A DNA stretch of 64,000 nucleotides from Hydnum rufescens UP504 (lineage: Eukaryota; Basidiomycota; Agaricomycetes; Cantharellales; Hydnaceae). The position numbers and the translations under genes were made by a program. The stretch covers positions 302,097-366,096 of the forward strand of contig MU128938.1 of assembly GCA_014904985.1 (NCBI GenBank), in the 5' to 3' direction. Below, piece by piece: positions 25,850 to 60,906 of this stretch. Position 1 is the first letter of the stretch. Each line of letters opens with the position of its first letter. Under the pieces are notes generated by a model. That model was not told the origin of the DNA. It did not search any database and saw only the letters and a program-made list of their open reading frames with translations.

Positions 25850-27285
25850 ACTGAATTAAGGAATGGGGAGGAACCAGAAGGTGGAGGAGGTTCCAGTTCT
25901 AATGGGTTAGTCCAGTCTGTAGGACTGAGGCCATTTTGTATGGCCTGACAAGTCAGTAGTTCACCTAATGCACCCTCAAAATAGTACCTCTTAGGTGGTT
26001 TGAGTTTGCATCTGCAAACCACCTAAGAGGTGTTCTGAGTATAGGCATGTCTAAGACACGCCTGAGGGGTATTTTTGGGGAATTTTTTTTCTAAGTTCAC
26101 TATATAGACATGTCTAAAATAGCCTGCCACAGGCACCGCCCGGGAGGGTTTGTTCACTGGCTGGAGAGTGTTGCAGGTCTAATTTAGGCACATCTAATAA
26201 GAGATTTTCTGGAGCCTTAGAGGTGTCTATCATCCTTACTGTGTGTCTACTGGTGTCTAAATCAACATTTTGAGCCCAAGACCTCTGGTGGCAGTACTAA
26301 TAGGTGTCTAATGTTGTCTAGATCCAATAATAATCCAATAATAATGGTGCTATTGTGGATGCATGTCTACTAGTGTCTAAATTAGACCAAAGGCATCTGC
26401 TCAGGGGGAGATCATTAGACATGTCTAGAGATGTCTAGAGATGTCTAGGTGTGTCTAGACATCTCTAGACATGTCTAATGATCTCCCCCTGAGCAGATGC
26501 CTTTGGTCTAATTTAGACACTAGTAGACATGCATCCACAATAGCACCATTATTATTGGATTATTATTGGATCTAGACAACATTAGACACCTATTAGTACT
26601 GCCACCAGAGGTCTTGGGCTCAAAATGTTGATTTAGACACCAGTAGACACACAGTAAGGATGATAGACACCTCTAAGGCTCCAGAAAATATCTTATTAGA
26701 CATGCCTAAATTAGACCTGTAACACTCTCCAGCCAGTGAACAAACCCTCCTGGGCAGTGCCTGCAGCGGGCTATTTTAGACATGTCTATATAGTGAACTT
26801 AGAAAAAAAATTCCCCAAAAATACCCCTCAGGCATGTCTTAGACATGCCTATACTCAGAACACCTCTTAGGTGGTTTGCAGATGCAAACTCAAACTACCT
26901 AAGAGGTACTATTTTGAGGGTGCATTAGGTGCAGTAGTTCTTGGAGGGAAAGAGTTTTTATGCCCACAAGGGCAAAGTAGGTGGACTTAGTCATTAGGAC
27001 TGGGGTTGCACAGTGTGTAGTGCATAATCTGTAAGTCCACAACTCTGTGAGACAGACAGATGGTAGTGGCAGAAAAGATACATTCCCTGGGCTTTGCCAT
27101 GGCTCTTTCCATACAGTTGAGTGACTAAGGAATGCTAGGTAAGAAAGGGGCAACTCCCAGGGCAGCACCAAACTCCTCAGTGAGGAGAAGCTTTCCACCG
27201 GTTTGTACTTAAGAAAGCTATAGTAAACCCAATTTAGAAAGATGAGGTCTCCCCATGGCTTAAGGGACTCATGACACCACTAACA
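25850..27285 (-). repeat. Second Ty3-like LTR, interrupted by a fold-back element
   Basis: The right part (26940-27285) matches the LTR pattern of the first element: GGGCAGCACCAAACTCC, GAGAAGCTTTCCACC and a CACTAACA end at 27285. The left part (about 25850-25961) carries GAATTAAGGAATGGGG, like the other LTR edge. The fold-back 25962-26931 splits it. The left boundary is approximate. Confidence 0.6.
25962..26931. mobile_element. 970-bp fold-back (palindromic) element, family F1
   Basis: Near-perfect inverted arms meeting near 26445 (GACATGTCTAG-rich centre), ends CACCTAATGC/GCATTAGGTG, and the 8-bp duplication CAGTAGTT at 25954-25961 and 26932-26939. It has no ORF. The 8-bp duplication suggests a hAT-type mobiliser. 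Half of a related copy lies at 43671-43942. Confidence 0.9.
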
Positions 27286-27479: not shown

Positions 27480-28173
27480 TTAAGAATCCTGGCCAGAATC
27501 TATGGCAGCTGAATATGTTGCTTTATAATTAGGCATCTCATAATGCTGGTGTTCCTTTTTGAGCATCCTCCTCTCAAGATGGTTGGAATATGCTCCATAG
27601 TGTTTACATTCCCAGACCCAATGCTTCTCACTCCCACAGGCAAAACACTTCTGGCTGGGCTTATTGTGGCTGACCACAGAGTCATCTCAAGGATACAGGT
27701 ACATCTTTTCAACATTGTCTGCCATCTTGTTTGATGAAGGTATGTGACACTGAGGATGATGGGATCAGCCTGCCAGGCACTTTCCCATGTTAAACACTGT
27801 CAAGGAGGCCCTATTTCCTTCTGCTTCCTCACTGGAGTAGTAGAAGGCTCCCTCTGAATCATCCTTGAAGGGGGAGTGCAGGGAATCCTCCTCATCCCTT
27901 TCTTCATTGTTCCCTTGCACAGCTAAATTGGCTCTCTTGGAGCTCCTTGCTCCTCAACAATGTCAGTAGTACTGTGAAGATCTCCACTGAGTGATCAACA
28001 TGGCTTCAAATTTCTTGGCCAACATCAGGACTGATTCTATCAGGGGTCAGTCACTCCAGCACAGGATGACATCCCACTCAGTTGGTGCATTGTTCATGAC
28101 CGAAGCCATTTCCTTGGGACTATTGGGAGTGAATTGCAAGAAAATGTGTGAGAGGAGGATTTGCTGTTGTATG
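27480..28173 (-). pseudogene. Second Ty3-like gag, C-terminal part with zinc knuckle
   Basis: Minus-strand coding: EYIQQQILLSHIFLQF (28170 down), NNAPTEWDVILCW, in-frame TGA, then CFACGSEKHWVWEC (CCHC knuckle, about 27604-27645), ending at 27480 with a stop. It continues from 33682-34300 when the 5.5-kb palindrome is removed. Only about 200 bp separates this end from the LTR, so protease, RT and integrase are absent. Confidence 0.75.
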
Positions 28174-29054
28174 CACCTTAGGCAGCCCAATTTCCGTACC
28201 TAATTAGATAGTCTTTTTCTGGTAGAATATGGGGTCTAATAGACCTATAGGCCCATGGCCCCACATGTCTTAAGAATGTAACCATGGCCCCCTGGGGCCT
28301 CCTGAATATCAGGACCCATGGGCCCATGCCAGGGGATTTTTAGACACTGGCCCCATGAAAACCCCCCTCAGCTCTTCACTCTCTGCAGACAACATTCATT
28401 CCAGCCTCCGCCTTCATTTTCGTCCAAGACAGCTAGTGGGCGCATTGGTCATCACCTATTCAAATAAATAATTTACATCTGCTACATCCAAAAAACTCGC
28501 CGCCATCCATCGGTGCCCACCCCCTCTGGCAGCAGGGTCACTGTGCAGGGCAGCAGACAGCCCCAAATGATAGCCATACACCGGAAATCAGCCCACCACG
28601 GCTACCCATTCACTCTGCGCAGTCATTGCCCATTCAAAAGCAGCGGGGTTTCCTTATTTGGAAATCACATGTTCATTCGGACTTGCATATTCCAGCCTGC
28701 TACAAGGCCTTTTTTGGCTGCTAATTGGGCAGCACAGTACCCTGCATTTATCTCTATTTTACATTACAAAGAAGGGGCTACCAAAGAAAAAAATACAAAA
28801 TTGAATTCACACAAAAAAAAACATGTGCACCCGGTGCCTACAGGGACCGGGCACACGATCTGAAGGGGTAATATGTTGGAGGAAACCCAGGAGTCCATGC
28901 ACACAAATTTTCGTGTGCATAGGTGCCCAGGTTCCTCCGTTATTTGCGATTTCGTACAGGTCTATCCTTTTGAACCAGCCACAGGCTTTGGCTGGTCAAA
29001 ATTGCCGGAAACAAGGACGATCCCGTCATCGTGGGATCGCCCTTATCACCATTC

Positions 29055-30490
29055 AGGGTAGGTGGGAAAGATAATTAGTCCCTATAATGAAAATAACTCG
29101 GATTGTTAGTACGGACCGCAAACAAGGCAGCTTAAAGCAGCCCTGTCCGCACTAAAGGAGAGGCGGGTTTGGGGGGACTTAGCTCATCACCACACCCCGG
29201 CCTTGCTGGGGTGTGGTGTCCCGACCTATTGTGTGTGTGGTTGGAGTCTTCGGGTTCTTCAGTCGCGCGGATCGTGTAGAATCATAAGATCCGCAGTCGT
29301 TCGCAATGACAACGCTGGGATTGCCGTCGTTATTGCTATCAGTCGAGGTAGGCGAGGGGGGTGCGGGCGAGCATGATGATCCCTAAAGTGAAAGTAATCG
29401 GATTGTTAGTACATAATTAAAGCAGCACAAAAAGGGCTGCCTAAGCTGCCCTTTTTGTACGATACGAGATGAAGGACAAATATACTTACCTGATTACCAC
29501 ACCCCAGCAAAGCTGGGGTGTGGTTTCCTGTCGCGGGTGCTTCATCGCTGGGTTCTGTGGTCGCGCGGGGCCATATGAGCCGTAATCGCCCGCGACGATT
29601 CCATAATTTGAAGGGAAGGAGGAGGGTGAGCAGCGGTGATACATCCTGTAACGAAAGGACTTTGAATCGTTAGTAAAGAATGAAACCTATGCAAAGAAGG
29701 CAGCTTAAGAGCCGCCCTCTTCGCGAAAGACGAGACATAAATACTGTACATACCTTATCACCACACCCCAGCCTTGCTGGGGTGTGGTGTCCTGTTCATG
29801 GTGGCTTGTTGTTGGCTTCTTCGGTCGCGCGGGGTCGAAAGCTCCGTAATCGTACATGGCGATTACCGGATCGTCATCGTCGTTCCAAGTGCAAGCGGCG
29901 GTTGGGGAGGTGTAATAGTACCTAGGATGAATACGGTTCAAAATGTTAGTAAAAAATTAAAAGCTGCACAAACGAGGCAGCTTAAAGCTGCCCCACCCGT
30001 GCAAAAAGTATCAATACACGTACCTGCTCACCACACCCCAGCAAGGCTGGGGTGTGATGACCTAGTTGGTTGGTCGCGCGGGGTCATATCCAGAATCGAG
30101 TGGACGATGACGATAGCATCGTCCTTGTCCTCGTCATCATCATCGTCCTCGTCCTCGTCATCATCCTCATCATGTCATGTCATGTCATTGTCATTGTCAT
30201 CTTCATCGTCCTCATCATCGATTTATGTCCGGGGGGTGGGCCTGAGCGATAGCCCTGATAATGAAACGAATTCGAGATGTTAGTAGATAATATAAGGAGT
30301 GCAAAAGGACCGGCTTGGACCGGTTCCTTTTGCACAAAAACGTAAATAAAAAACCATACCTTATTACCACACCCCAGCATCGTCGCTGGGGTGTGGTGCT
30401 CGCTTGCTCCATAATTGGGTGTCGGGTGAAGCCGCGACTCAACTCCGGCAAGTGCCAGGTTCAAAAAAGGCGCCCAACACCAGCAGAACA
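29055..30490 (-). other. Left-arm copy of the exon/intron array
   Basis: The inverted copy of 31370-32800, reading outward on the minus strand, so the palindrome holds two divergent copies. Hairpin A copies lie near 29190, 29497, 29762, 30033 and 30367. Hairpin B copies lie near 29115, 29412, 29693, 29966 and 30300. TTAGTA (complement of TACTAA) precedes each hairpin B on the plus strand. Confidence 0.6.
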
Positions 30491-32334
30491 GACGCCACAA
30501 AACATTGTTGAAGTGTATATGCAGATGAAAACGCATGTTGGATATATGAATAATTATTTGGGTCATAGTATTAAAGAAAAGGCAAGAATGAGCAAGATCT
30601 GAATAAGGCAATGTATTATGACACTGAACAGGGGATTGGGCCGCCTGTATGGATCAGAGTGCCCCAAAAATTAAATATTGGGATTATATATATGTGTGCT
30701 ACATGGTATATTCATAAAAATGGGTACCAGAGACGCCTAATAGTATAATTTCCTTATTTGGGCATGTGTATTTCCTCATTCTTTCAGTCACTTCACGGTA
30801 TTAGAGCCTAGGAATTAGGGATTGGAAGTGTATCTATTATGCCCACAAAATGGTATTTTTTTCATAATTTTTAATGGAAATGCTATGTCACGAGTTCTGC
30901 ACCATCAGAGTTGTTGGTTCTGACGGTAGCTGCCACCGTCAGAACCAACAACTCTGATGGTGCAGAACTCGTGACATAGCATTTCCATTAAAAATTATGA
31001 AAAAATATCATTTTGTGGGCATAATAGATACACTTCCAATCCCTAATTCCTAGGCTCTAATACCGTGAAGTGACTGAAAGAATGAGGAAATACACATGCC
31101 CAAATAAGGAAATTATACTATTAGGCGTCTCTGGTACCCATTTTTATGAATATACCATGTAGCACACATATATATAATCCCAATATTTAATTTTTGGGGC
31201 ACTCTGATCCATACAGGCGGCCCAATCCCCTGTTCAGTGTCATAATACATTGCCTTATTCAGATCTTGCTCATTCTTGCCTTTTCTTTAATACTATGACC
31301 CAAATAATTATTCATATATCCAACATGCGTTTTCATCTGCATATACACTTCAACAATGTTTTGTGGCGTCTGTTCTGCTGGTGTTGGGCGCCTTTTTTGA
31401 ACCTGGCACTTGCCGGAGTTGAGTCGCGGCTTCACCCGACACCCAATTATGGAGCAAGCGAGCACCACACCCCAGCGACGATGCTGGGGTGTGGTAATAA
31501 GGTATGGTTTTTTATTTACGTTTTTGTGCAAAAGGAACCGGTCCAAGCCGGTCCTTTTGCACTCCTTATATTATCTACTAACATCTCGAATTCATTTCAT
31601 TATCAGGGCTATCGCTCAGGCCCACCCCCCGGACATAAATCGATGATGAGGACGATGAAGATGACAATGACAGATGACAATGACATGATGAGATGATGAC
31701 GAGGACGAGGACGATGATGATGACGAGGACAAGGACGATGCTATCGTCATCGTCCACTCGATTCTGGATATGACCCCGCGCGACCAACCAACTAGGTCAT
31801 CACACCCCAGCCTTGCTGGGGTGTGGTGAGCAGGTACGTGTATTGATACTTTTTGCACGGGTGGGGCAGCTTTAAGCTGCCTCGTTTGTGCAGCTTTTAA
31901 TTTTTTACTAACATTTTGAACCGTATTCATCCTAGGTACTATTACACCTCCCCAACCGCCGCTTGCACTTGGAACGACGATGACGATCCGGTAATCGCCA
32001 TGTACGATTACGGAGCTTTCGACCCCGCGCGACCGAAGAAGCCAACAACAAGCCACCATGAACAGGACACCACACCCCAGCAAGGCTGGGGTGTGGTGAT
32101 AAGGTATGTACAGTATTTATGTCTCGTCTTTCGCGAAGAGGGCGGCTCTTAAGCTGCCTTCTTTGCATAGGTTTCATTCTTTACTAACGATTCAAAGTCC
32201 TTTCGTTACAGGATGTATCACCGCTGCTCACCCTCCTCCTTCCCTTCAAATTATGGAATCGTCGCGGGCGATTACGGCTCATATGGCCCCGCGCGACCAC
32301 AGAACCCAGCGATGAAGCACCCGCGACAGGAAAC

Positions 32335-32361
32335 CACACCCCAGCTTTGCTGGGGTGTGGT
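32335..32361 (+). other. Representative exon-end hairpin A
   Basis: CCACACCCCAGC, a 3-nt loop, GCTGGGGTGTGG: a perfect 12-bp stem ending 6 nt before the GTAAGT of the next intron. Four further copies in the right arm (near 31467, 31799, 32069 and 32639) keep the stem with different loops. Confidence 0.85.
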
Positions 32362-32397
32362 AATCAGGTAAGTATATTTGTCCTTCATCTCGTATCG

Positions 32398-32430
32398 TAC
32401 AAAAAGGGCAGCTTAGGCAGCCCTTTTTGT
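32398..32430 (+). other. Representative intron hairpin B
   Basis: ACAAAAAGGGCAGC paired with the later GCAGCCCTTTTTGT across a short loop, 30 nt into the intron. In the first intron the same place holds GGAACCGG/CCGGTCC (31526-31562), so the stem is kept while the sequence changes. Confidence 0.8.
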
Positions 32431-32811
32431 GCTGCTTTAATTATGTACTAACAATCCGATTACTTTCACTTTAGGGATCATCATGCTCGCCCGCACCCCC
32501 CTCGCCTACCTCGACTGATAGCAATAACGACGGCAATCCCGGCGTTGTCATTGCGAACGACTGCGGATCTTATGATTCTACACGATCCGCGCGACTGAAG
32601 AACCCGAAGACTCCAACCACACACACAATAGGCGGGACACCACACCCCAGCAAGGCCGGGGTGTGGTGATGAGCTAAGTCCCCCCAAACCCGCCTCTCCT
32701 TTAGCGCGGACAGGGCTGCTTTAAGCTGCCTTGTTCGCGGTCCGTACTAACAATCCGAGTTATTTTCATTATAGGGACTAATTATCTTTCCCGCCTACCC
32801 TGAATGGTGAT

Positions 32812-33036
32812 AAGGGCGATCCCACGATGACGGGATCGTCCTTGTTTCCGGCAATTTTGACCAGCCAAAGCCTGTGGCTGGTTCAAAAGGATAGACCTGT
32901 ACGAAATCGCGAATAACGGAGGAACCTGGGCACCTATGCACACGAAAATTTGTGTGCATGGACTCCTGGGTTTCCTCCAACATATTACCCCTTCAGATCG
33001 TGTGCCCGGTCCCTGTAGGCACCGGGCGCACATGTT
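32812..33036 (+). other. Three further hairpins in the outer right arm
   Basis: CCAGCCA..TGGCTGG (about 32860-32881), ATGCACACGAA..TTTGTGTGCAT (32936-32959) and GTGCCCGGT..ACCGGGCGCAC (about 33001-33031). They continue the hairpin chain beyond the last intron. The mirror copies are at about 28820-29050. Confidence 0.7.
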
Positions 33037-33681
33037 TTTTTTTGTGTGAATTCAATTTTGTATTTTTTTCTTTGGTAGCCCCTTCTTTGTAATGTAAAAT
33101 AGAGATAAATGCAGGGTACTGTGCTGCCCAATTAGCAGCCAAAAAAGGCCTTGTAGCAGGCTGGAATATGCAAGTCCGAATGAACATGTGATTTCCAAAT
33201 AAGGAAACCCCGCTGCTTTTGAATGGGCAATGACTGCGCAGAGTGAATGGGTAGCCGTGGTGGGCTGATTTCCAGTGTATGGCTATCATTTGGGGCTGTC
33301 CGCTGCCCTGCACAGTGACCCTGCTGCCAGAGGGGCGGGCACCGATGGATGGCGGCGAGTTTTTTGGATGTAGCAGATGTAAATTATTTATTTGAATAGG
33401 TGATGACCAGATGCGCCCACTAGCTGTCTTGGACGAAAATGAAGGCAGAGGCTGGAATGAATGTTGTCTGCAGAGAGTGAAGAGCTGAGGGGGTTTTCAT
33501 GGGGCCAGTGTCTAAAAATCCCCTGGCATGGGCCCATGGGTCCTGATATTCAGGAGGCCCCAGGGGGCCATGGTTACATTCTTAAGACATGTGGGGCCAT
33601 GGGCCTATAGGTCTATTAGACCCCATATTCTACCAGAAAAAGACTATCTAATTAGGTACGGAAATTGGGCTGCCTAAGGTG

Positions 33682-34300
33682 TTGTATGTACTCCACAGGT
33701 GATTCATTGGGGTACTTGGCATTATGGAAGACCTCTTTGTTGTATTTGAGGTGCTGTGCCATGTACCAGACCTCTCCTAGATAGTGATGTAAGACCCACT
33801 CACACAGGTTGTCCCATGACTGGAGAATTGAGTTTGACAGGCAAGGAGTGTGCCCACCAAGCAGTTGCTACTGCTCCTTTAAAACAGCATGTTGCTATCA
33901 TGGGCAACTGGCCCTCCAACATGGGGCCTAGACTCACAAGGTCATTACATTCATACAGCCAGTTGATTGCTGTCTCATGAGCTCTGTCCCATTCAGGTAT
34001 GGTGGACCATTTAAGCTTGTTGTCCCACACAATGCCAGAGGGTGGGGCATTGGAGAGCAGTCCTTCAGGTCCAGGGGGAACTGGTGGGCCTGGAGGGCCA
34101 GGAGGGCCTGGAGGGCCAGGAGGGCCAGTGGGAATGGGGGGGCCTGAGGGACCTCCACTAGGAGGGGTTCCTGGCCCTTGGCTTCCTTGTCCTGGACCTC
34201 CTCTGCTACCTGGGCCTCCACTTCCACTGCCTGGACCTCCACCTCCACTAGGGCCTTCACTGTTGCCCCCTTCCAGCTGGCCACCCCCACTACCCTTCAA
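33682..34300 (-). pseudogene. Second Ty3-like gag, N-terminal part
   Basis: Gly/Pro-rich head (GGPGSGSGGPG.., PPGPPGPPGPP) followed by a capsid-like segment (LKWSTIPEWDRAHETAINWL, near 34000; GAVATAWWAHSLP, near 33850) and KYPNESPVEY at the palindrome edge. It is the counterpart of gag in the first element. The plus-strand collagen-like frame across 33999-34313 is only its complement. Confidence 0.75.
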
Positions 34301-37042: not shown

Positions 37043-38411
37043 TATGGTTGCCAAAGTCAGGTTCAGGTCAGGTTTTGCCCCATTTGGGCAAAACCTGAAC
37101 TTAACCAAAACCTGAATCTCCTCAATTGGCAAAACCTGAACCTAACCTGAAGAAAACCTATCTTAGGTTAGGTTCAGATCAGGTTCAGGTTTAACCCAGG
37201 TTCAAACCTGAAATCATGAGCCCCTTCAGACATGAGAAATATCTGAGCTGAACACTGATTTTAACCATAATCCAGAATGAGTCATCAATTCTGGCTATGG
37301 TTGCCATGGTCAGGTTTTGGTCAGGTTTTGCCCAATTGGGCAAAACCTAAACCTGACCAGGTTCCAAAATCACCCATGAGGGCAAAACCTGAATCTGACC
37401 TGAGGCTCAGTCTCATTCAGGTCAGGTTCAGGTTTAAACCTGGTTTAAACCTGAAACCTGAGGTATGAGGGAAGCCAGCATTTTCAGGGGGTACTACAGA
37501 ATATCTAGACCCCCTGCTCACATCTCTGCCTCTGCTACTCCCTTTACATCCTGCTTTAGATCCACACCTCCTTCCTAGCCCCCTTTCACTTCAATTTACT
37601 GCTCACACATCTTCTGGAGATGGTATTTAGTCACTACATTCTGTCATGTGACTTATGACCTGCACCAATTACCTCATTTGATGGCCAAGTCATGGGACTT
37701 CTGACTCCAGAACTATAGTCACATCTGTAAATTGCCAGATTTGGTGCCAGAATAGTGGTCAATTTACATGGAGTGGAACCTACACCCTACCTTTCAGGTT
37801 CAGGTTTAAACCTGGTTTCAGACCAGTTTTTGGATTCAGGGCAAGGGCAAAACCTGAACCTGACCTGAAGAAAACTAAATGAAACCTGACCCCAATGGAA
37901 CCAGACCTGGGTCAGGTTCAGGTTTAAACTCAGGTTTCACAGGTTTAAACCTGAACTGCAGCATCCATAAAATTTTGGCAAGTTCCAGAGTTATGTAAGC
38001 AGGTTCCTTGGTGGAGAAATAGGTTACTTTGAACTGAAGTTAACCTCATGCAAAGTTTATATTGACTATACATAGTCTATGTATAGTCAATATAAACTTT
38101 CCATGAGGTTAACTTCAGTTCAAAGTAACCTATTTCTCCACCAAGGAACCTGCTTACATAACTCTGGAACTTGCTAGAATTGATGACTCATTCTGGTTAA
38201 AATCAGTGTTCAGCTCAGATATTTCTCATGTCTGAAGGGGCTCATGATTTCAGGTTTGAACCTGGGTTAAACCTGAACCTGACCTGAACCTGAAAACATG
38301 GGGGAAAAACCTGAAATCACCCATGAGGGCAAAAACCTGAACCTGACCACAGGTCAGGTTCAGGTTCAAACTCAGGTTTCCAGGGTTTGTAACCTGACTT
38401 CAGCAACCATA
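37043..38411. mobile_element. Fold-back element, family F2, copy 1, with nested M1 MITE
   Basis: Ends TATGGTTGCC/CAGCAACCATA. Perfect 8-bp duplication GCTGTGAA (37035-37042 and 38412-38419). Arms meet near 38070 at AAGTTTATATTGACTATACA/TGTATAGTCAATATAAACTT. It inserts in the hAT transposase gene, and removal restores the local sequence. An M1 MITE lies in its left arm. Confidence 0.9.
37296..37971 (+). mobile_element. hAT-like MITE, family M1, copy 3, nested in F2
   Basis: Starts TATGGTTGCC and ends GCATCCATA(AA). The flanks ATTCTGGC (37288-37295) and ATTTTGGC (37972-37979) form an 8-bp duplication with one C/T change. The other F2 arm shows the uninterrupted sequence. Confidence 0.85.
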
Positions 38412-38419
38412 GCTGTGAA

Positions 38420-39465
38420 GGAAACCTTCCCCAGTGAATCCTTTGTGTACCATCAGCAAATTCAGATTGTGTTTTGTTGCATCAGTTCTATGTGGGTCTT
38501 ACTTCTAATTCCCTTGTAAGCTTAAGGAATTCCTCATGTCACATTGTAAGGATGGACATTCTAATTTTGGTACAGCCTGGGATATCATCATTGGTAAGGT
38601 ATTCTTGTAAGTAGAGAAGTAGGTTTCAAAATTCTGGACACTTGATGGCATTCATGGCCTAGGAATTTAACATAGATCAGATGCTGCCATGGGTGAGGCA
38701 TGCCATAAAACCATGCACCTGGTCATTGGCCACAATCCACTGAGTAATGTGGTGAGTAAGGCCACTAACACTGAACTCAACATTTTGAGTCATGGCAGAT
38801 CCTTTTTCTTTGTCTGAGTAGGCATGTTCTCACAGAGAGATGCAATCACAATTGGCCACTTCATCATCTTGCATTTATCAACATATGCCTCTGAATGATA
38901 CCACTCCATGTGCAAATGGAGAGTAGTATTGCTAGACTGACAGTACCTCCAGGTGTGGCCCTTGAGACTTGGATGGGAGGAATTTTCATCATAGAGTTGC
39001 CTGGGTTGTATTACTTCAGTGCTTAGAGGTGGCCTTGTAGGGATGCCTCATCATACCTGCACAATTGGCACTCAGAGCCTATTCCACCTTTCTTGTGATG
39101 GAACTCTTGAAAGAAATATTATACATCATGTGCAGAGCAGAATTTCTTCTCTTTTTTGTAGACAATAGGTGTGCCCTGAGGCATGGATGCACTCAAGGGG
39201 TGGGCTGGGGTCACTGGGATAATATCTTGAGGTTGCAGATTGGATGAACCTGGGGATGTTGTCAATAGACTAGGGTTGATAGCAACAAACTTAGCATGCT
39301 TCTCAGGAGTGCTTGCTCCATCATGAGCTCACTTTTTGAGCATATAGGTAGGTTGGGGAAGAGAAATGGTGAAAATTGATTTTTTTCCATCAGTATTTTG
39401 GTGACCCCCAACCAGTAAACCATTAATTGAATAAGTAAACCACCACTGCAGCTTTAGTAGCTTTA
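38420..39465. other. Upstream part of the hAT gene and its 5' flank
   Basis: Holds the N-terminal transposase blocks described at 36650-39330. The last ~130 bp (39330-39465) is unassigned. Confidence 0.45.
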
Positions 39466-40116
39466 GGGCCCCTTCGGCTGCACGAGAAACGTTTCTGAAG
39501 ACTGTTTCTGCAAGGTGTTTCTGAAAGTGTTTCTGCAATTTAGAAATACCTATTTACTTCTGACAGTTGGTCTAATACCCGGGCTAACCAGAATTCACAT
39601 GCTGGCCCATTTTGGGAACATCCGGAAGCAAGACCAGAAATTCGGTGCCGCAACTCAACGCTGGCCCAGGTGAGGGGGTGCATAAGCCTGTTTAGGCCCA
39701 TACAATGCACAGAAGTAGACTCTTAGTTATATTTTAAGCTTACTCAAGAAGTCCCAGGTGATTTTGAAGAAGATAATCGAAAATTCCCAAAAAGGGAATT
39801 TTCAATTATCTTGTTCAAAATCACCTGGGACTTCTTGAGTAAGCTTAAAATATAACTAAGAGTCTACTTCTGTGCATTGTATGGGCCTAAACAGGCTTAT
39901 ACACCCCCTCACCTGGGCCAGCGTTGAGTTGCAGCACCGAATTTCTGGTCTTGCTTCCGGATGTTCCCAAAATGGGCCAGCACGTGAATTCTAGTTAGCC
40001 CGGGTAATAGACCAACTGTCGGAAGTAAATAGGTATTTCTAAATTGCAGAAACACTTTCAGAAACACCCTGCAGAAACAGTCTTCAGAAACATTTCTCGT
40101 GCAGCCGAAGGGGCCC
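39466..40116. mobile_element. Harbinger/Tourist-like fold-back element
   Basis: 651 bp. Long inverted arms starting GGGCCCCTTCGGCTGCACG and ending in the complement, centre near 39790 (GGGAATTTTC..). Flanking TTA on both sides (39463-39465 and 40117-40119). A 3-bp TTA duplication and GGGCC ends are typical of PIF/Harbinger MITEs. No ORF. It keeps several CpGs, so it looks younger than its flanks. Confidence 0.85.
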
Positions 40117-40119
40117 TTA

Positions 40120-43670: not shown

Positions 43671-43942
43671 CACCTAGTGCACCCTCAAAACAGGTGGTTT
43701 GAGTCTGAATCCACAACCCACCTAAGAGGTGTTCTCAGTATAGGCAGGTCTAAAACACACCTGAGTAGTATTTTCAGGGGATTTTTTTCTAAGTTCATGA
43801 TATAGACATGTCCAAAATAGTCCCCCACAGCTACCACCCAGGAGGGTTTGTTCACCAGTTGGAGAGTGTTACAGGTCTAGTTTAAGCATGTCTAATAAGA
43901 TATTTTCTGCAGCCTTAGATGTCTATCATCCTTACTCTGTGT
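43671..43942 (+). mobile_element. Half copy of fold-back family F1
   Basis: Starts CACCTAGTGCACCCTCAAAA and follows the left arm of 25962-26931 (AGGTGGTTTGAG, TAGACATGTC, GGAGGGTTTGTTCACC) to about 43942, where it breaks off. The second arm is missing. Confidence 0.8.
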
Positions 43943-58410: not shown

Positions 58411-60906
58411 ATGGGATTCATACGTTCGGCCCTGGCTGTAGCCCTTATCGCCTTTGTGATAGTCCAGTATCCATTCCTCTGGGACCTCCTTCCGGATTTC
58501 ACTGCCTTATATGGCCAGTTGATATCACGAAGACATCCCATTGTGAAGCTAAGCCAGGGCATCGTCTACGGCGAACACACCTATCTATCAAACTCTCCGA
58601 TTGAACGTTTCCTTGGTGAAATCGCTTGTATTCCTCCATGATTTCTTACTTCTGATCGTCGATAACAATTAGGCATTCCCTTCGCCCTGCCTCCCGTTGG
58701 GAATCTCCGTTTTGACGCGCCTAGAGCAATCCCCGATGATCCAAATCGAATCATAAGCGCAAAAGCTTATGGTCTATCTTGCATCCAAACCACTTCCGTC
58801 CGTATCATGCGCCTTCTGTACATTCACTAGTTATCTGATGTACTGACGTTGGTTTAGCAAGACCACGTCTCAGAAGATTGTCTGACAGTGAATGTCATTA
58901 GACCTGCGTCCACTGATTCGTACGTGCGGTGACACCATTGTGAGCTATGACTGGGCTTTGCTCACCATGCTCTCCACTAGCTCTGCCAAACTCCCCGTAA
59001 TGGTCTGGATATACGGAGGAGGATTTACTGATGGAGCATCTGTTCTCTACGATGGATCAGAACTCGTTAAGCAGAGTCTCGCCATAGTATGTTGTTTCGC
59101 TGGACGACTTATACTGATCGCGTATTGACAATGTCACCGTGGACCTGTGTCCATAGAAACGTCCAATCATCTACGTTTCGATGAATTATGTCAGTTTTCT
59201 TTGATTTGTTCAACCCAAGGCAGAGTGCACAGTACCCTGTTCTTACCATTTTGACTTTCAGCGCTTGAACCTATTTGGGTTCCTTGCGTCCTCAGAGGTC
59301 GAAAAGAGGGCCAAGTCGAAAGGGGATGCGGTTCTTAATGCGGGTTTACTAGACCAGCGCCTTGCCCTTCAATGGGTCCAAAAGAATATTGATGCTTTCG
59401 GAGGGGATAGAGAAAAGGTGGCTCTATAGACGATCAACTTCACGGGACAAGACTCACTATGTAAATCACACAGGTGGTGGTCTTTGGACAGAGCGCCGGT
59501 GCGATCTCTATCGGTTCACACTTGCTTTCCAACCACGGAAAACATAGCGGGTTGTTCAGGGGTGCCATCCTCGAATCTGGAGGCAGCGTTGGGTATGGAA
59601 TTGTTCTCTTCGTATTGCTCCTCCAATGACGTATCCCCCCCATCCCTTAATGGTAACTAGAATTCCGATCATCCCTGCCAAGGAATACGATGCTTCATAC
59701 GCCAAATTAGCAGAACGAGTGGCTTGTAATTCGTCGTCGTCTTCCAGTGTGTTCGATTGTCTGCGGACAGTTCCTGTCGATACATTCCAGGCTGTACTTG
59801 AAGAGAGGCGCAGCGGTGTGACGGCCTTTGCCCTCAAGGAACAACCCAATAACGTCGTTCAGGATGATGACTTCCATCACGCCAGACCCAGCGAGGCGTT
59901 CAAAACGGGAAAAATTGCGAGGGTTCCCACGATAATTGGTGCGAGCTCTGACAGATCTTTCCTTTCACGTCAAACTGAATCATCTGATATTCTGGTAGGG
60001 ACGGTCCTGGATGAAGGCGTGGAGTTTGGCACAGATAAGCTCACGTCAGAGAACGAACTTCGAGAATTCATAATAGGCATGTATTCTCCGCGGCATATTT
60101 GGCTCCTATTAATGATCCTTCCTCTGCCAGAGAATTGGGTGTTCAACAAGCCCAAGTCATTATCCAGAACGCTGAACACATTGCTGCGGCATTATCCAGA
60201 TATTCCCTCCCTTGGATCCCCATATCCTTCACCCTCTCGAACAGGGGGCTCTTGGGACGACAACAGCCGGTTATTCGAGCCTCTCGACAGCAACCAATTC
60301 AAGCGCGTGAGCTCCATTGCCGGAGATCTTATCTTCGAGAGTGGACGACGTGTACAACTGGACGACCTTGCCCGCGCTGGGGTTCCGGTCTGGAATTACC
60401 GATTCATGCAACCCCCGGGTGATCGTGAGACAAATACGGGTGTATATCATGGGGGCGAGCTGCAATATGGTGAGTGCATCATGTTGTTTTGTCTTGTTTC
60501 CTGTGTTCCCGTGCCGTCTTGCTGATGTATGCATGAATCTTCCCTCCCCCCCTTAAAAGTTTTTGCTAGGCTGGCGGATCGGCAAGACGCGCATGGCGAG
60601 ATCTCTCGAATTATGTCTCGTGCATGGATTCACTTCGCCCACGATCTTGATCCAAACGGACCCGAACGTGAGTCATCCATTCTAGGTATTATTGCTCCCC
60701 AGAATTATATTCCAAATGCCCTCCGCACCCACACCTTCCCCTTGTATTGCGGTATAGTTCCCTCCTGGCCGGCATTCTCCCTTGCGAAAAGAGAATCTCT
60801 TCAGATCCTGTATGGAAACACTACTGTCATCCGGGACGACTACCGGAAAGAAGCAATGGACTGGATGGGACGTGATTATAATTGGCTGGCTGTTAGTGTG
60901 CGCTAA
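58411..60906 (+). CDS. Type-B carboxylesterase/lipase
   Basis: Ten exons by eye: 58411-58615, 58673-58797, 58858-58919, 58981-59086, 59157-59189, 59262-59417, 59474-59592, 59661-60469, 60560-60667, 60758-60906 (623 residues, total divisible by three). N-terminal hydrophobic segment (residues 4-20) for secretion or anchoring. [27 protein letters not shown] (oxyanion hole), [15 protein letters not shown] with nucleophile Ser236 and HGGELQYVF with His532 fit the family. Odd points: Gln in place of the common Glu in the elbow, and SSDRSF where relatives have DEGT, so the usual acid of the triad is Arg367. Residues about 420-455 (exon 8) look abnormal and may hide an extra intron or a frame change. 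Confidence 0.85.

Follow-up and report, generated by a model that had tools for sequence, protein, structure and literature searches.

A palindromic, non-autonomous KDZ-type transposon of Hydnum rufescens whose arms may encode a spliced, hairpin-rich non-coding RNA

Judged by its ends and target site duplications, a 5.5-kb palindrome in the window (the whole 64,000-nucleotide stretch of Hydnum rufescens UP504 contig MU128938.1 analyzed here) is a non-autonomous KDZ (Kyakuja-Dileera-Zisupton) transposon. The pattern of conservation in its interior suggests that it is probably a foldback passenger, with arms that encode a non-coding RNA which is spliced and rich in hairpins.

A palindromic insertion with outward-facing modules

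When the window was compared with itself by blastn, positions 28174-33681 matched their own complement (99.1% over 5519 columns), with base 30931 as the axis (Table 1). The arms make up 2757 and 2750 nt of the 5508 nt, so that long inverted repeats form most of the element, as in foldback transposons. The original prediction of a palindromic transposon with divergent hairpin/exon/intron modules agrees with this self-alignment and with the mirrored outward arrays; the start that it gave was correct, and its end (33680) falls one base short. The element has inserted with duplication of 7 bp of its target: genome matches to the joined flanks crossed the junction in 32 of 35 cases, 29 of them over nearly the whole query. 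The two arms differ at some sites, indels included, and an arm mostly resembles its partner in the element more than it does the arms of other elements. A gradient of conversion from the center was considered and dropped, as arm differences were low at the center and low again near the ends (copies C16, C204 and C158). The central region has relatives in other copies, in both orientations, and contains blocks common to a second hairpin family. Further palindromes of 970, 653 and 211 bp occur in the same window, and palindromic repeats are thus not rare in it. Elsewhere in the window, an esterase-like open reading frame (59548-60525) matched a Hydnum rufescens protein at 92% over 43% of the query, behind higher-ranking unnamed proteins, a match in keeping with a host in or near Hydnum.

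Each arm holds five TACTAAC motifs in its own sense and none antisense, one per intron-like block. The five blocks per arm predicted earlier (101-108 nt, four with GT donors, all with TACTAAC) were recovered, and the CT at donor 5 recurs in copies C30, C488, C317, C521 and C162. Other measures required adjustment: the distance from branch point to AG is nearly constant as proposed, yet a recount between the branch-point A and the acceptor G gave 23-25 rather than 22-24 nt; the exon hairpins lie close to the donors, with the core stopping 7 nt short of each rather than within about 6 nt; and their description as perfect holds for three of the five in the right arm, numbers 2 and 5 being the exceptions.

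Table 1. Features of the palindromic element (window coordinates)
Feature	Position	Strand	Remarks
Whole palindromic element	28174..33681	.	Ends CACCTTAGGCAGCC...GGCTGCCTAAGGTG exact; self-alignment 99.1%
Left arm	28174..30930	-	Read outward
Right arm	30932..33681	+	Read outward
Left target site duplication	28167..28173	.	TTGTATG, 7 bp
Right target site duplication	33682..33688	.	TTGTATG, 7 bp
Terminal region common to KDZ-type elements	33428..33681	+	Mirrored at left end
Central region	30412..31450	.	Proposed mirror-symmetric promoter/leader (putative function)
Exon-1 end hairpin	31465..31494	+
Intron-like block 1	31502..31606	+	105 nt; GTATGG, TACTAAC at 31576, CAG; internal hairpin about 31526-31562
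Exon-2 end hairpin	31800..31826	+	One T-G pair
Intron-like block 2	31834..31935	+	102 nt
Exon-3 end hairpin	32070..32096	+
Intron-like block 3	32104..32211	+	108 nt
Exon-4 end hairpin	32334..32360	+
Intron-like block 4	32368..32474	+	107 nt; internal hairpin about 32396-32431
Exon-5 end hairpin	32640..32666	+	One A-C mismatch in right arm
Intron-like block 5	32674..32774	+	101 nt; donor CT (CTAAGT), not GT
Left-arm intron-like block 1	30255..30359	-
Left-arm intron-like block 2	29922..30023	-
Left-arm intron-like block 3	29646..29753	-
Left-arm intron-like block 4	29383..29489	-
Left-arm intron-like block 5	29082..29182	-	CT donor

Ends shared with KDZ transposons of the same genome

The element has CA..TG termini and a duplication within the 7-8-bp range, both features of fungal KDZ DNA transposons in the published descriptions consulted. 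Its exact end occurred 71 times in the genome (reversed control: 0). A 124-aa piece of the KDZ gene of the C6 element, used as query with 150 of 320 candidates scored, identified 17 loci at ≥66% identity, and among these the exact end lay on the expected side at 13 (at 1.7-2.3 kb in 12; in one, at a distance of 10.2 kb, measured to the opposite end). The remaining loci comprised C369, with a match to the terminal region only, and three with neither. Other elements carry these ends too, along with duplications of 7-8 bp, and six of eight of them contain one KDZ transposase subfamily; PF18758 matches lay inside the end pairs of C6, C42 and C183 and beside the ends of C158 and C121. The terminal region itself aligned with the C48 element at 75% over 258 columns and with the C6 element at 76% over 191. 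Target duplications were 8 bp in four, 7 bp in two and absent in three of nine palindromic copies tested, and 8 bp in four, 7 bp in one and absent in three of eight other paired ends tested. The idea of a self-standing kind of transposon is not supported, since KDZ elements elsewhere in this genome have the same ends and target duplications. No KDZ transposase was located in the element among the PF18758 and KDZ-subfamily matches listed, and its five open reading frames of at least 150 aa are arm repeats; for this reason the element is called non-autonomous.

Distribution, conservation and folding of the modules

With up to two mismatches, the hairpin was found at 217 sites in the 63-Mb genome (reversed pattern: 0), and the hairpin plus donor motif (≤1 mismatch) occurred 144 times forward and 144 times reverse against 0 and 0 for controls; viral contigs held no exact match to the hairpin plus donor pattern. 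The spacing of hairpin to donor and of branch point to AG is kept in these other copies, which decides in favor of the original prediction the genomic half of the condition that it had set for its own refutation. Across nine elements, the full donor/branch/acceptor signature stood on the outward side of 39 of 62 hairpins and on the inward side of one. The second hairpin family shares this module arrangement, and the one center examined in it is palindromic. Copies C30, C6 and C74 differ by about 0.5-1.3%, closeness which indicates that the family has moved recently.

Divergence was compared with the C30 arm as reference and CpG-affected sites excluded (one-sided tests with single-test P values; lineages not independent). 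Against the arms of C16, C204 and C84, divergence was 0.08-0.14 in exon hairpins, 0.11-0.13 in intron hairpins, 0.17-0.21 in splice signals, 0.26-0.30 in the rest of the exons and 0.30-0.32 in the rest of the introns. Splice signals diverged less than sequence elsewhere at P < 0.05 in six of eight comparisons, again one-sided, single-test and not independent (for C521, 2/86 vs 112/665, P = 5 × 10−5), the exceptions being C84 (19/90, P = 0.15) and C74b (3/87, P = 0.07). In deep pairs this effect was weaker than that of the hairpins. In the three closest pairs, exon hairpins showed no significant slowing (C74b, P = 0.46; C317, P = 0.08; C488, P = 0.29), and the same held for intron hairpins in C74b (P = 0.052) and C488 (P = 0.34). 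Among diverged copies, the comparisons suggest slower change in hairpins, and to a lesser degree in splice signals, than in exon bodies and the remaining intron sequence.

The intron helix also showed covariation. Across 51 introns, 90.0% of cells were paired (shuffled: 79.3%; 0/500 as high), 89 cells had changes on both sides (shuffled: 29.8; 0/500), and two-sided changes with pairing kept were seen at 10 of 12 pairs (5/500 as high); when slid out of place, the helix was at most 62% paired. In a chosen set of 33 introns, pairing reached 94.1%, with 55 such cells against 18.9 shuffled. Covariation in exon hairpins was modest (22 compensated cells vs 5.7 shuffled, in a set that includes out-of-register matches) and was set aside as a sole support, being too weak and noisy. 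Correction of the stems as DNA could contribute to the signals of exon and intron hairpins alike. Folding z-scores ranged from −3.65 to −5.93 in five hairpin-plus-donor stretches (shuffles folding as well: 2/200 in one stretch, 0 in the others); the two introns that were folded gave −5.05 (intron 1) and −4.39 (intron 4). The original prediction raised control of splicing through pairing at the 5' site as a possibility. The stem itself ends 7 nt ahead of the donor, but in isolated folds the donor letters were unpaired only in the first of the five stretches, with weaker other pairs in the remaining four. An Rfam search of the window gave no match at gathering score, and a tRNA gene search returned none.

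Alternative explanations

An unlikely alternative to a spliced RNA is a structure that works at the DNA level, with the hairpins serving as binding or cruciform sites for transposition or replication, maintained by template switching, and the splice-like signals being incidental. The loops of one module occur in either orientation, depending on the copy (TTT/AAA, AAG/CTT), a mark of DNA-level flipping; the tip of the intron-4 hairpin includes the terminal motif CTTAGGCAGCCC; and the second family also has hairpin arrays without introns. Against this stand the fixed, one-sided placing of donor, branch point and acceptor (39 outward against 1 inward) and the slower change of splice signals in six of eight comparisons, as well as the KDZ elements that share the ends: inside C6, C42, C48, C105 and C129, no exact hairpin was among the matches listed. 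Pieces of such elements, searched for stems of ≥8 bp (L047 1-1621, L049) or examined by sequence reading and blastn (L050), likewise showed no exon hairpin. Together with the lack of exact hairpins among the matches listed, this set back the candidate role of the exon hairpin as a transposase-binding site. Slightly less likely again is a source of small RNAs, in which Dicer would cut the hairpins or arm-to-arm double-stranded RNA. The hairpins are stable in folding and a transcript of the whole element would give a 2.7-kb duplex, but at about 12-20 bp the stems are short for cutting by Dicer, and the modules face outward, away from formation of a long duplex. The long double-stranded RNA envisaged originally is unsupported as stated, as it needs read-through of the center, which outward modules would avoid.

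Descent from a protein-coding gene whose exons were duplicated in tandem is improbable. In the C30 copy, one frame is open in some exons and an ATG in exon 1 precedes a hydrophobic stretch, and exon 5 differences are somewhat uneven by codon position (93/90/64). However, reading frames fail to join across all introns, stops are present in the close relative C488 too, the frame of exon 1 differs between families 1 and 2, and exons 4 and 5 are broken by indels of 28, 29, 1, −1, −10, −11 and 2 nt. Counts in exon 4 are even (62/60/50), and the exon 5 unevenness is no codon signal because intron 4 is more uneven (50/38/21). The coding reading was dropped after these tests of frame and codon position, which point to no clear codon signal, and hence no clear coding constraint, in the two exons compared (exons 4 and 5). 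Very improbable is an introner-like array, each hairpin-intron cassette having been inserted separately: similar introns are repeated, and many introners are described as deriving from non-autonomous DNA transposons (PMC9860276), but exon and intron stretches here repeat jointly (118-nt matches, 264-nt spacing), pointing to tandem duplication, and by sequence reading the intron borders carry no visible duplication or inverted ends. That the palindrome is an inverted chimera of the assembly is scarcely credible. Near-perfect palindromes can be such artifacts, and palindromy in the C204 copy runs 1.6 kb into the flanks with no target duplication; against this, target duplications flank six of nine palindromic copies tested, the arms differ by indels among other changes, and empty sites were found.

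A proposed spliced RNA and its relation to known elements

Our preferred reading is a transposon with transcribed arms. The KDZ transposase of end-sharing elements would move the element in trans, and, as conservation suggests, each arm would be a transcription unit running outward from a mirror-symmetric central promoter. The spliceosome would remove four or five short introns per arm transcript, the hairpin within each intron bringing donor and branch point closer together and a stable, GC-rich hairpin closing each exon just before the donor. The product would be a non-coding RNA that, once spliced, consists of near-identical hairpins strung together by little-constrained spacers, and the arms may be kept alike by conversion between them or because the palindrome re-forms repeatedly. 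We tentatively raise the possibility that these mobile loci, each with mirror symmetry, represent a new class of structured RNA gene. Their sole product would be a spliced, non-coding RNA made of serial hairpins, hairpins and spliceosomal signals would be conserved jointly while exons drift, and the loci would form diverged families within a single fungal genome and act on behalf of the transposon, for example in protection from silencing or in binding a dedicated protein. More doubtful is our best guess at the role of the RNA, that the hairpins bind a protein or stabilize the RNA and that well-spliced, outward transcription keeps the element expressed while avoiding arm-to-arm double-stranded RNA.

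FB and Galileo are foldback transposons with very long inverted repeats and copies without transposase. The present element resembles these and Tetris in both respects, and differs in arms that bear outward arrays of spliced-looking modules; we know of no such array in FB, Galileo or Tetris. From KDZ transposons it differs in having no transposase, in being nearly all inverted repeat and in its cargo of hairpin/intron modules. In published descriptions, Kyakuja has a 7-bp target duplication and CA..TG termini, and Zisupton an 8-bp duplication and inverted repeats (PMC12730594), while Cryptococcus KDZ1-3 have duplications of 4-8 bp and inverted repeats of 139-241 bp (PMC12810828). Published Kyakuja families are said to be without terminal inverted repeats, unlike the element described here. 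Introners (PMC9860276) and stwintrons (PMC12403724, PMC8469720) also involve short spliceosomal introns that recur and are linked to mobile DNA, whereas the introns here sit in a fixed array inside a transposon and are apparently not the moving unit. Searches of open-licence PMC papers, judged by titles and abstract openings, revealed no element with this plan, which does not prove absence.

The interior of this element appears to be under constraint on RNA-type features (hairpins and introns), with no clear coding constraint, whereas DNA transposons without a transposase are usually regarded as passengers with an unimportant interior. If an RNA is made, the family would offer a tractable non-coding transposon product in which splicing is selected without a protein, and would also be a case of palindromes kept alike within mobile DNA.

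An inserted palindrome with modular arms

The palindrome with hairpin and intron modules announced in the original prediction is real. Its arms mirror each other in the self-alignment, and TTGTATG stands on either flank. When the flanks of the element were joined and matched against the genome (63.2 Mb, 539 contigs), 35 matches were obtained, of which 32 span the junction and 29 of those cover nearly the whole query (21 of the 29 at 82 to 93% identity); of the three left over, two are the flanks of the element itself and one is a partial match. Since the joined flanks match so many junction-spanning sites, the element is an insertion into repeated sequence.

Five intron-like blocks of 105, 102, 108, 107 and 101 nt follow one another in each arm, counted from the axis outward. 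Four donors are GT and one is CT, and TACTAAC and a YAG end occur in all five, the arms being mirror images; the predicted donors, branch points, acceptors and lengths of 101 to 108 nt are thus borne out on both arms. The intron with CT at donor 5 may be retained in the lineage of the window copy (C30; copies are named after their contigs) and four others (Table). Each exon ends in a hairpin whose 12-bp core stops 7 nt upstream of the donor, about as close to the splice site as anticipated; the further claim that all these hairpins are perfect held for three of five in the right arm, the other two having a T-G pair and an A-C mismatch, respectively. Of five stretches of hairpin plus donor folded in isolation, the first alone leaves its donor wholly unpaired, so there is room for regulatory pairing. 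One exon hairpin has its loop in opposite orientations in different copies, which looks like an inversion of the hairpin.

Table. Coordinates of the element and of other features (window positions unless a contig, C, or fetched stretch, L, is named)
Feature	Location	Extent and identity	Remarks
Palindromic element (C30)	28174-33681	5508 bases; arms 2757 and 2750 nt; 99.1% over 5519 columns	Axis at base 30931
CT for GT at donor 5	32674, 29182		Likewise in copies C488, C317, C521, C162
Exon hairpin loop in both orientations between copies	32334-32360		Equivalents in L031, L032, L033, L036; TTT/AAA, CTT/AAG
Other palindrome	25962-26931	970 columns, 96.9%	Looks unrelated to the element; part has a relative at 43671-43942
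Other palindrome	39465-40117	653 columns, 96.2%	
Other palindrome	37971-38181	211 columns, 96.7%	
Short palindrome adjoining C16 copy	L036 7922-8382		Ends like those of next, rich in AACCTGAACCTG
Short palindrome adjoining C6 copy	L029 1385-1860		Ends like those of previous, rich in AACCTGAACCTG
C204 palindrome	L038 792-9223		Extends 1.6 kb into both flanks
Second-family centre	C26:373900-375400	1426 columns, 97.9%	Palindromic; sole second-family centre fetched
Second-family hairpin array, no recognisable introns	C7 473860-474150 (L065)	~75-nt spacing	Near apparent second-family end
Second-family hairpin array, no recognisable introns	C317 L033 9430-9640	~75-nt spacing	Near apparent second-family end

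Relatives and sequence constraint

Arms, ends and centres of the element have relatives on many contigs. Hairpin sites number 217 genome-wide (≤2 mismatches) and the hairpin plus donor motif 144 per strand (≤1 mismatch), with no match to either reversed pattern, so that, as predicted, other copies keep the hairpin-donor arrangement. Among hairpins of nine elements, the intron signature lies on the outward side of 39 of 62 and on the inward side of one. An inverted pair of >150 nt was present in 16 of 20 fetched stretches and absent from four, some of the pairs falling outside the element (e.g., L043).

Covariation of the intron hairpin was first counted in 33 hand-chosen introns (32 from 58 modules plus the fifth window intron; near-duplicates and some weak stems excluded), giving 94.1% of helix cells paired and two-sided changes in 55 cells against 18.9 in shuffled sets. 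To undo the hand choice, the count was repeated on 51 introns (all 50 listed introns of 86 to 125 nt plus the fifth window intron, eight of other lengths being excluded) with the helix taken from the first set. Here 90.0% of cells were paired (79.3 shuffled; 0/500 shuffles as high), two-sided changes affected 89 cells (29.8 shuffled; 0/500) and 10 of 12 helix pairs (5/500), and further pair types numbered 25 (21.2 shuffled; 10/500); slid versions of the helix were at most 62% paired. Covariation of the exon hairpin was modest (22 versus 5.7 shuffled).

Divergence from a C30 arm was compared with CpG-affected sites excluded, in one-sided, uncorrected tests across lineages that are not independent. 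Against the C16, C204 and C84 arms, exon hairpins (0.08 to 0.14) and intron hairpins (0.11 to 0.13) diverged less than the rest of exons (0.26 to 0.30) and introns (0.30 to 0.32; P = 2e-4 to 3e-8). For splice signals, defined as donor −3 to +6, TACTAAC and the last three bases, divergence was 0.19 (P = 0.012), 0.17 (P = 0.011) and 0.21 (P = 0.15), respectively; in closer pairs these signals differed at 0/84 sites in C317 (P = 0.0015), 0/92 in C488 (P = 0.022), 2/86 in C521 (P = 5e-5), 9/91 in C162 (P = 0.031) and 3/87 in C74b (P = 0.07). Exon hairpins were not significantly slower in C74b (P = 0.46), C317 (P = 0.08) or C488 (P = 0.29), nor intron hairpins in C74b (P = 0.052) or C488 (P = 0.34). 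Exons 4 and 5 gave no clear codon signal in non-CpG differences by position or in indels: summed over ten comparisons with shared history, the positions held 62/60/50 differences in exon 4, 93/90/64 in exon 5 and 50/38/21 in intron 4, and indels measured 28, 29, 1, −1, −10, −11 and 2 nt, with some of −3, 3, 27 and −9.

Common ends with KDZ transposons

The end CACCTTAGGCAGCC occurs exactly 71 times in the genome. Eight pairs of such ends outside the palindromic copies, spaced 3.5 to 20 kb, were tested; one Kyakuja-Dileera-Zisupton (KDZ) transposase subfamily lies inside six (C6, C42, C48, C105, C129, C183) and is absent from the C148 and C19 pairs. The KDZ domain profile PF18758 has at least 154 matches (best 150 of 584 candidates scored), those listed including matches within the C6, C42 and C183 pairs and at similar distance from single ends on C158 and C121. 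With a 124-aa piece of the C6 KDZ gene as query, this subfamily was traced to at least 17 loci at ≥66% identity (best 150 of 320 candidates scored). At 13 of the 17 the end stands without mismatch where it is expected, C369 has a terminal-region match only, and C226, C134 and C136 have neither. The element's end also aligns with end regions of same-ended elements on C48 (75%, 258 columns), C158 (71%, 194) and C6 (76%, 191).

Target duplications in these eight pairs measure 8 bp (C42, C48, C129, C148) or 7 bp (C6), none being found at C183, C105 and C19; among nine palindromic copies they measure 8 bp (C6, C74, C84, C49) or 7 bp (C30, C16), with none at C204, C158 and C317. PMC12730594 describes CA..TG ends, 7-bp duplications and a lack of inverted repeats for Kyakuja, and duplications of 8 bp together with inverted repeats for Zisupton; PMC12810828 gives 4 to 8 bp for Cryptococcus KDZ elements. 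Given common ends and duplication lengths like the published ones, we file the element as a non-autonomous KDZ transposon, which a KDZ protein would cut.

How the arms stay alike

Had arms diverged independently since the copies split, those of one element would not be mutually closest. Among seven elements with both arms present in the central region, they are so in five (C30, C488, C521, C16, C158), tied in C204 and not so in C362; in the array they are so in six of eight (C30, C488, C317, C84, C204, C286), the C16 and C49 arms not being mutually closest by distance and the tree joining those of C16. The C30 arms are not sisters in the central tree, where copies are nearly identical. In C362 (L039) the arms are 71% alike, the left grouping with the C233 copy and the right with the C16 group; its left flank beside the end is identical to that of the C233 copy (L040) over 22 bases.

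CpG transitions account for most differences between arms in five of seven elements profiled (C30, C521, C16, C204, C158), and other transitions for most of those in C488. Many KDZ domain matches (at least 154 listed, best 150 of 584 candidates scored) contain in-frame TGA, and CpG methylation decay is a possible source of both. In C16, C204 and C158 the differences peak in the array and drop again toward the ends (outer bins of C488, C521 and C286 lie beyond the aligned arm and were excluded), so composition explains much of the profile. The extended C204 palindrome, which lacks a target duplication, suggests either that the palindrome re-formed or spread once the element was inserted, or that the assembly is faulty at this locus. 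Given the further palindromes in the window, the tendency to form palindromes may belong to the host's repeats rather than to the element family.

Possible function and a second family

The preferred reading places a mirror promoter at the centre, from which transcription would run outward along each arm; the transcript would be spliced, and the hairpin RNA so formed would be the selected product. The intron hairpin would bring the donor closer to the branch point by a shorter path; the exon stem ends 7 nt before the donor. A role of this RNA in protein binding or anti-silencing is our guess, and an improbable one. The strongest rival holds that the hairpins act at the DNA level, and is ranked so because hairpin loops switch orientation between copies. 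As a mobile element it belongs with the non-autonomous foldback transposons, a known kind of which it is a new form; searches of the open-licence literature listed no match to its hairpin/intron-module cargo.

A second family of modules lies within the C317 stretch and on C53, C7, C5, C6 and C26. Its exon hairpin, CCACACACCCGC..GCGGGTGTGTGG, has 53 sites (≤2 mismatches), its intron hairpin core also differs from that of the window element's family, and its ends, where apparently visible, resemble CACCTTGGTCAGTC..TACCTAGTTAGGTACC; some signals of the module are missing from decayed copies. Hairpin arrays of this family also occur on C7 and C317 (Table). The order of exon, hairpin, donor, intron hairpin, branch point and AG is the same in both families, and the C26 centre and first exon align block-wise with the first family. 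The two therefore look like distant relatives, whose plan has outlived much of their sequence.
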